DNA of 64,000 nt from Synechococcus sp. WH 7805 (GTDB lineage Bacteria; Cyanobacteriota; Cyanobacteriia; PCC-6307; Cyanobiaceae): assembly GCF_000153285.1 (NCBI RefSeq), contig NZ_CH724168.1, positions 62,001 through 126,000 on the forward strand, given 5' to 3'. The notes beneath the pieces were generated by a model that had not been told where the DNA came from, did no database searches, and saw only the letters and a list, made by a program, of their open reading frames with translations. Position numbers and translations under genes: made by a program. Each line of letters starts with the position of its first letter. The first letter of the stretch is position 1. Below, piece by piece: positions 26,287-37,989 of the stretch.

Positions 26287-26958
26287 ATGTGTGGACGTTT
26301 TGCTCTCTCCATCTCGGTTTCGGCTCTCCCGCATCCCCTGCGAGAGCGTCTGGATCCCGTGCATCGCGAACGTTACGAGCCTCGCGACATGATTCGCCCT
26401 GGAGAACCTCTCCTGTCCTTGCGCCGGGATGAGAGGGGGACCTCCCCGGCTCTCATGCTCTGGGGTCTGATTCCTGCTTGGTGTCGGAATCCTTTAGCCG
26501 GACCAAGACCCTTCAATGCCCGTGTTGAAACTCTGAATGACAAAGCCAGCTTTCGGGGTGCCTGGCGTCATCGCCGCTGCCTGATTCCGGCCAGTTGTTT
26601 CTTTGAAAAAGGCTGGCGGATCCGGCGGGGAGATCAACAACCGTTCTGGCTAGCCGGCCTCTGGGAACGCTGGCTCGGTGCCGATGGCAGTGAAATCGAG
26701 AGCACCACGATTCTCACCACCACTCCCAATGCGCTCATCCGGCCTTTACATCCGCGAATGCCTGTGGTGATCCCGTCAGGGTTGGAGGACGCGTGGATGG
26801 CTTCTGTTGATGGAGCCGGCTTAAGGGCCTTGCAACCCTTATTGGAAAGCTGGGATCCCACCGGTTGGATTCGGGATCGGCCTGGAGACAGTGATCAGCC
26901 TGGAGACAGTGATCAGCCTGGAGACAGTGATCAGCTCTCTCTTTTTGAAAGGCTTTAG
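26287..26958 (+). CDS. SRAP (HMCES/YedK) abasic-site sensor with C-terminal clamp-type motif
   Basis: Encodes 223 residues. Start set at ATG 26287 because the family needs Cys as residue 2 (MCGRFA) to form a thiazolidine crosslink with an abasic site once Met is removed. The other active-site residues are present: Asn in FNARVETL, Glu in CFFEKG, His in HPRMPVVI. The protein shields abasic sites in single-stranded DNA and forms a stable crosslink. Its C-terminus has three GDSDQP repeats and then QLSLF (216-220), the consensus beta-clamp-binding pentapeptide. Eukaryotic HMCES ends in a PCNA-binding motif, so tethering to the sliding clamp is a natural inference. No LexA box is visible upstream. 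Confidence 0.93.
   Translation: MCGRFALSISVSALPHPLRERLDPVHRERYEPRDMIRPGEPLLSLRRDERGTSPALMLWGLIPAWCRNPLAGPRPFNARVETLNDKASFRGAWRHRRCLIPASCFFEKGWRIRRGDQQPFWLAGLWERWLGADGSEIESTTILTTTPNALIRPLHPRMPVVIPSGLEDAWMASVDGAGLRALQPLLESWDPTGWIRDRPGDSDQPGDSDQPGDSDQLSLFERL
26881..26934 (+). repeat. three exact 18-bp tandem repeats in the SRAP tail
   Basis: CCTGGAGACAGTGATCAG occurs three times in a row. It encodes GDSDQ(P) and supplies the Gln of the QLSLF motif in the last unit. The repeat could vary in number, altering linker length without a frame change. Confidence 0.95.
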
Positions 26959-27025
26959 CGTGTCGCAAGACACCATGGCAAACCTTGGTTTCCCTTAGCT
27001 TTCTTAAACAGATATTCGAAGATTC

Positions 27026-27340
27026 ATGCAGCTCTATTTTGTAATCGGCACGATGCCTGATATTGACAGCCAGCTTGATGTTTATCGGGAATTCATCAAT
27101 TACTTCGAAGGTGGTTGTCAAAATGATTGTTTCGAGGGCTTTGAATTGGTTCAGCGGGCACACCTTCCTGGTCAAGGTCAGGTGGTGGCTCTGATGAAAG
27201 CCCGCGGCACTGAGGAACTCTTCCGACATCTCGCACCCTGGCGGGCACAATTCGGCGTGGAGATGGAGATCACTCCAGCGATCAGTGATGCCGAGGTTGT
27301 GGCCAATCACAAAGTTCTGTTCGCCTCAATGGAGGACTGA
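27026..27340 (+). CDS. DUF3303-like small protein
   Basis: Encodes 104 residues starting MQLYFVIGTMPDIDSQLDVYREF. GQVVALMKARGTEELFRHLAPWRAQFGVEMEITPAISDAEVV resembles DUF3303-type proteins (W-x-x-x-F-x-x-x-x-x-I-T-P near the end). It probably has the same ferredoxin-like fold as the protein at 21626, but similarity is low. Follows SRAP by 67 bp on the same strand. Confidence 0.6.
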   Translation: MQLYFVIGTMPDIDSQLDVYREFINYFEGGCQNDCFEGFELVQRAHLPGQGQVVALMKARGTEELFRHLAPWRAQFGVEMEITPAISDAEVVANHKVLFASMED

Positions 27341-37732: not shown

Positions 37733-37966
37733 TCAGGCGACTTCAGGGGCCCAGCCGACCTGATGGTGCCAGCTGGGAGCCCACTGGCGGCAATGGTGCG
37801 TGAGGTGCGTTCCCTGAGGCAGTTGTTGATGCTGGCGTTCGCAGGCGAGCAGGGTGCGTCCCTGCTCGTCACAGCCATAGCGGAAGTGCTGGCATGTGAT
37901 GCAGACGCTTGAACCGCGGCTGAGCCGAAGATCGCTGACACTGAGGATGCTCCAGGACTCCATCAT
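37733..37966 (-). CDS. four-cysteine mini-protein behind a LexA-type box
   Basis: Encodes 77 residues. Cysteines 22, 25, 42, 59 (C-x2-C-x16-C-x16-C), FRY after the second, LPxG before the last, and Trp three after it, exactly as in the paralog at 100-333. Likely a zinc or Fe-S site. A palindromic AGTACATCTGTACT lies at 37976-37989, 9 bp before the start codon, so the gene may be under SOS control (see that entry). Function unknown. Confidence 0.65.
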   Translation of the reverse strand: MMESWSILSVSDLRLSRGSSVCITCQHFRYGCDEQGRTLLACERQHQQLPQGTHLTHHCRQWAPSWHHQVGWAPEVA

Positions 37967-37975
37967 GAACGGGCG

Positions 37976-37989
37976 AGTACATCTGTACT
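37976..37989. promoter_or_regulatory. candidate LexA (SOS) operator
   Basis: AGTACATCTGTACT is a perfect dyad outside its central two bases and fits the cyanobacterial LexA consensus RGTACNNNDGTWCB. It lies 9-22 bp upstream of the 37733-37966 start codon, where repressor binding would overlap the promoter or ribosome-binding region. No other perfect match was noticed when scanning GTAC sites in the window. Confidence 0.6.

Follow-up and report, generated by a model that had tools for sequence, protein, structure and literature searches.

The cyanobacterium Synechococcus sp. WH 7805 encodes a SRAP protein, an abasic-site sensor of the YedK/HMCES type, whose C-terminal QLSLF motif probably docks it on the β sliding clamp (DnaN), an arrangement predicted to shield lesions at the replication fork. 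The gene lies at positions 26287 to 26958 (plus strand) of the 64,000-nucleotide stretch of DNA analyzed here (the window), and its product of 223 residues is identified by Pfam, AlphaFold, and Foldseek. From the sequence and model comparisons described below, we infer actual DnaN binding, location at the fork, and an effect on lesion handling.

The protein terminates in DRPGDSDQPGDSDQPGDSDQLSLFERL. Within this tail, QLSLF occupies residues 216 to 220 (26932-26946) and is a predicted β-clamp-binding motif by its conservation, its ratio of nonsynonymous to synonymous differences (pN/pS), and the published motif definition (PMC12309361). The same source gives the clamp consensus as QL[S/D]LF, in agreement with the initial annotation of this DNA, which had cited QL(S/D)LF as the consensus peptide. 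That annotation also placed the motif at the C-terminus; the motif is indeed there, but the protein ends three residues further on, with an ERL (26947-26955) that is poorly conserved among relatives. Just upstream lie three identical 18-bp tandem copies of cctggagacagtgatcag (26881-26934; 3.4 copies with a score of 115 by Tandem Repeats Finder), which encode (PGDSDQ)x3 and whose third unit contributes the Gln of QLSLF as its final residue. Thus, the three exact repeats noted initially are real, but the unit reads PGDSDQ rather than GDSDQP. In the AlphaFold model, confidence (predicted local distance difference test, pLDDT) is mostly below 50 in the tail, including residues 204 to 213 and 220 to 223; the repeats form a predicted disordered linker, and QLSLF sits in a predicted disordered region, a feature looked for in a clamp client. 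On the opposite strand, an open reading frame (ORF) of 191 residues (26735-27310), with ADHCLQ repeats, spans the repeats and the downstream gene; it is probably spurious.

SRAP genes are present in 44 of the 60 nearest genomes and, across the family Cyanobiaceae, in 245 of 300 sampled genomes, the other 55 giving no SRAP match. (One picocyanobacterial genome, G104, has a SRAP gene with several stop codons, L139, which is apparently a pseudogene.) Defined as QxxLF/L or QLxLxL within the last 25 residues, a clamp motif is found in 105 of 129 distinct Cyanobiaceae SRAPs, compared with a mean of 4.3 and a maximum of 11 in 1000 trials with shuffled tails. The strict form, QxxLF, occurs 67 times in this set against an expectation of 0.55 from the shuffles, and the reversed motif, FLxxQ, does not occur in any of the 129 tails. 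Among 839 flanking ORFs, taken as background, the broad motif is seen in 11 (1.3%) and the strict motif in five, one of which is itself a SRAP tail. The initial annotation had suggested looking for a QLxLF tail among picocyanobacterial relatives; far from being absent in all close relatives, the tail is the usual condition, and to that extent the annotation's inference of docking on DnaN is supported.

The spacing of the motif varies, and its composition does not stray far. The distance from the last tryptophan of the domain to the motif ranges from 6 to 47 residues with high entropy, and Q1, L4, and F/L5 are retained; in an alignment of 41 relatives, Q216 is invariant and L219 nearly so. Positions 2 and 3, which the five-residue search leaves free, are mostly L/M and S/D, as in the published consensus QL[S/D]LF. 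Variants include QLSLF, QMSLF, QLDLF, and QLSLL, and several Cyanobiaceae SRAPs carry six-residue alternatives (QLSLPL, QLELDL, QLSLEL, and QLNLDL). QLSLPL is the form found in Hda, where it binds the clamp tightly (PMC12309361). Within the genus, pN/pS is 0.25 across the motif codons but 0.91 across the five just before them, and it falls to 0.17 at motif position 3. The constraint at positions 1, 4, and 5 is partly circular, since these positions define the search; the value at position 3 and the count of 105 of 129 are not. By this codon comparison, the motif is under purifying selection beside a near-neutral linker.

The same data bear on the idea that a C-terminus prone to repeats simply acquired the tail by chance or through neutral change. 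The near-neutral linker and the exact repeats of the window gene speak for this idea. However, the motif codons are constrained, the motif is far commoner than shuffling allows, and nearly all relatives keep it without any repeat. A synonymous difference (pS) of about 0.7 between the genes compared speaks against recent common ancestry as the sole cause of the conservation. A chance origin of the motif is rejected by the shuffles, the reversed motif, the flanking ORFs, and the codon constraint alike, and we regard this explanation as scarcely credible.

The linker itself is changeable. The number of repeat units differs between species: it is one in two of the closest relatives (L037 and L044), one diverged copy in a third (L035), two in a fourth (L038), and three in the window gene. 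The variable copy number anticipated by the initial annotation (1, 1, 1, 2, and 3 among close species) is therefore borne out. Because the three copies in the window gene are identical, a recent duplication is suggested. Given the near-neutral pN/pS of the linker, there is no sign that its length matters.

Alternatively, the tail may be a short conserved signal recognized by something other than the clamp, perhaps a protease adaptor or a complex with a Y-family polymerase, or it may be a C-terminal degron; its likeness to a clamp motif would then be incidental. In line with this, 45 of the 105 motif copies end exactly in ...LF or ...LL, as a C-terminal recognition signal would, and a connection between certain SRAP-like proteins and UmuC-like polymerases has been described (PMC12926913). 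However, the remaining 60 copies are followed by 1 to 19 residues, an extension incompatible with a C-terminal degron; the motif varies (QLSLF, QMSLF, QLDLF, QLSLL, QLSLPL) in the way that clamp motifs do; and it recurs in distant lineages. We consider another partner quite improbable.

Docking on DnaN also requires a suitable pocket. When the host DnaN is aligned with E. coli DnaN (its sequence checked against PDB 1mmi) and the pocket residues are taken from a review of the clamp (PMC11139829), L155, T172, G174, H175, R176, L177, P242, M362, N320, Y323, and P363 are the same in both proteins. Most residues of subsites I and II are identical, with several substitutions, and because most of the E. 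coli pocket is kept, the host DnaN has a plausible pocket for QLSLF.

Several observations weigh against docking on DnaN. The pocket differs from that of E. coli at R152K, R246Q, V247L, V360L, V344T, M364V, and R365Q. UmuC of the same genus, which served as a positive control, lacks a canonical clamp motif, its best candidate being QHHLL. QLSLF has other occurrences in this genome, one of them close to the beginning of a nuclease-like ORF and probably fortuitous, and so short a motif is weak evidence by itself; a whole-genome search with a DNA pattern for QLxLF gave mainly background. Some Cyanobiaceae SRAPs lack the clamp motif. Finally, E. coli YedK has no such tail, nor do the majority of SRAPs from Gammaproteobacteria, Bacteroidota, and cyanobacteria outside the Cyanobiaceae, indicating that the tail is not needed for SRAP function in general.

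Outside the Cyanobiaceae, a clamp-motif tail is present in 12 of 29 SRAPs from Alphaproteobacteria, 5 of 30 from other Cyanobacteriota, 2 of 19 from Gammaproteobacteria, 1 of 27 from Bacteroidota, 8 of 76 from mixed bacteria, and 2 of 72 from viruses (1 of 72 by the strict form), proportions that are rough because these samples were ranked by profile score. In two proteins of other Cyanobacteriota (L157 and L165), QLSLF forms the very C-terminal end. A quick, approximate tree of 199 SRAPs, built with the last 30 residues removed, places the Cyanobiaceae in one clade (support of 100) and assigns 23 changes to the motif label, although single motif matches may partly be background. It is likely from this tree that the clamp-motif tail arose more than once in SRAPs. 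We lean toward the broader view that docking on the clamp is a common property of bacterial SRAPs, repeatedly gained and lost, standard in picocyanobacteria and frequent in Alphaproteobacteria, and convergent with the PCNA site of HMCES; abasic-site shielding would then be coupled to the replisome and compete with translesion polymerases for the clamp.

Several further tails were seen along the way. QxxLF endings such as DDGQAPLF and DTGQGSLF are frequent in alphaproteobacterial SRAPs (L211, L218, L219, L371, L375-L380, L384, L385, and L392), and a related group without the Gln ends in DPEPSLF or DPEPTLF (L189, L198, L209, and L214). One viral SRAP (L324, IMGVR_UViG_3300032373_001200) ends in GGQGSLF and is a possible phage protein docking on a host clamp; for the window protein itself, no relative was found in viruses. 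Second SRAP copies in five genomes (L045-L049, in G190, G216, G089, G087, and G173) end in WDPAGWEAIPVDWL and have no clamp motif. In the four two-SRAP genomes that were compared, one copy is tailed and the other ends in PVDWL without the motif, the two being 56-58% identical. Such genomes offer a natural comparison.

The domain that the tail would bring to the clamp is a SRAP domain with intact catalytic residues. The ORF opens with ATG-TGT, giving Met-Cys2, and its product matches the Pfam SRAP family PF02586 with an E-value of 9.2e-44 and 150 bits, well above the curated cut-off of 27.1. Residues 1 to 188 align with profile positions 1 to 196 of 214, and the folded catalytic domain is assigned to residues 1 to 198 (26287-26880) from this extent together with high per-residue confidence to about residue 200. 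The AlphaFold model, made from an alignment of 41 sequences, has a mean pLDDT of 89.7 and reaches at least 90 at 178 of 223 residues. A Foldseek search of the PDB returned 21 chains at E of 0.001 or below, all of the SRAP type, with 2f20, 1zn6, HMCES, and YedK first; E-values for 2f20, 6nua (YedK crosslinked to abasic DNA), and 6oeb (human HMCES) run from 5e-16 to 8e-13. Given the pLDDT profile and these matches, the modeled protein is a SRAP domain with some 24 disordered residues at its end.

In YedK, Cys2, residue 75, Glu105, and His160 form and stabilize the DNA-protein crosslink (PMC9436759). Alignment identifies their equivalents in the window protein as Cys2 (26290-26292), the crosslinking nucleophile; Asn77 (26515-26517), within NAR; Glu107 (26605-26607), within FFE; and His155 (26749-26751), within LHPRMP. 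All four are invariant across the 41 relatives, and the initial description of the catalytic residues as intact is confirmed. The profile match stops short of the VSxxVN C-terminal segment that is usual in the SRAP family and lies outside the active site, and the window protein lacks it. Cyanobiaceae SRAPs share this absence and have an altered N-[IV]-A-P-T-Q motif (RPGEP), with the four catalytic residues still invariant.

Together, these features allow a mechanism to be proposed. If an abasic site in a single-stranded template brings the replicase to a halt, the clamp would stay at the primer junction. Most likely, QLSLF on its short disordered linker would then hold the SRAP domain on this clamp, beside the lesion, where Cys2 would make a thiazolidine crosslink at the abasic site. 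Once crosslinked, the abasic site would be protected against cleavage and kept out of reach of translesion polymerases that bind in the same clamp pocket; a pocket shared with polymerases could in addition restrict translesion synthesis.

It is also conceivable, although rather unlikely in our judgment, that the protein binds the clamp without acting as a fork shield: the clamp would mainly position it at gaps in the lagging strand or at repair intermediates, or the protein would block polymerase exchange on the clamp and form no crosslink. The clamp does serve repair proteins as well (PMC11139829), and the genetic context is unsupportive of a damage-induced role at the fork. No LexA box (RGTACNNNDGTWCB) is present within one mismatch near 26287, and a promoter scan found nothing. 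The neighbors are DoxX, a divergent ORF of 51 residues, DUF3303, and a protein of the phosphate-binding type, with no repair genes among them. By these scans, the gene is probably not SOS-regulated in this host. Elsewhere in the window, a perfect LexA-box-like palindrome, AGTACATCTGTACT (37976-37989), lies about 10 bp upstream of a minus-strand ORF (37733-37966) that encodes a Cys-rich protein of 77 residues and may be a small SOS gene.

Neither the SRAP domain nor the clamp motif is new in itself; the novelty lies in how the two are joined in one protein and in how this pairing is conserved and recurs. In the papers searched, the route by which bacterial SRAPs reach abasic sites during replication is not established, and the work on YedK is mainly biochemical and structural. 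A conserved clamp tail would provide a simple route to the fork and would divide SRAPs into those that are clamp-docked and those that are not. No link between a bacterial SRAP and the sliding clamp was found in the literature searched, which omits most subscription journals, so that an earlier mention is possible. YedK is unmentioned in the clamp review (PMC11139829), and the main text of the original description of the SRAP family has no passage on PCNA or a clamp in connection with SRAP.

Among known systems, E. coli YedK shares with the window protein its fold, the Cys2/Asn/Glu/His active site, and the status of a single-domain bacterial protein. Unlike the window protein, YedK retains the VSxxV segment, and its chain stops soon after ...AELIQP, where no clamp motif is visible; the window protein instead has the linker and QLSLF. 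Among established clamp clients, Pol II, Pol IV, PolC, and Hda have a disordered or terminal tail with QL[S/D]LF or QLSLPL (PMC12309361, PMC11139829), whereas the motif described here sits on an abasic-site crosslinker rather than on a polymerase or an ATPase. A eukaryotic parallel is human HMCES, whose PCNA-binding site lies in a flexible terminal region (PMC10810282); the initial annotation had likewise noted a PCNA-interacting motif in eukaryotic HMCES. Both proteins join a SRAP domain to a flexible terminal region with a sliding-clamp site, for PCNA in HMCES and predicted in the window protein, but the clamp and the peptide differ. Because the tail is patchily distributed among bacteria, its origin appears to be separate from that of the HMCES site, suggesting that the same suicide crosslinker was coupled to the sliding clamp independently in bacteria and in eukaryotes.
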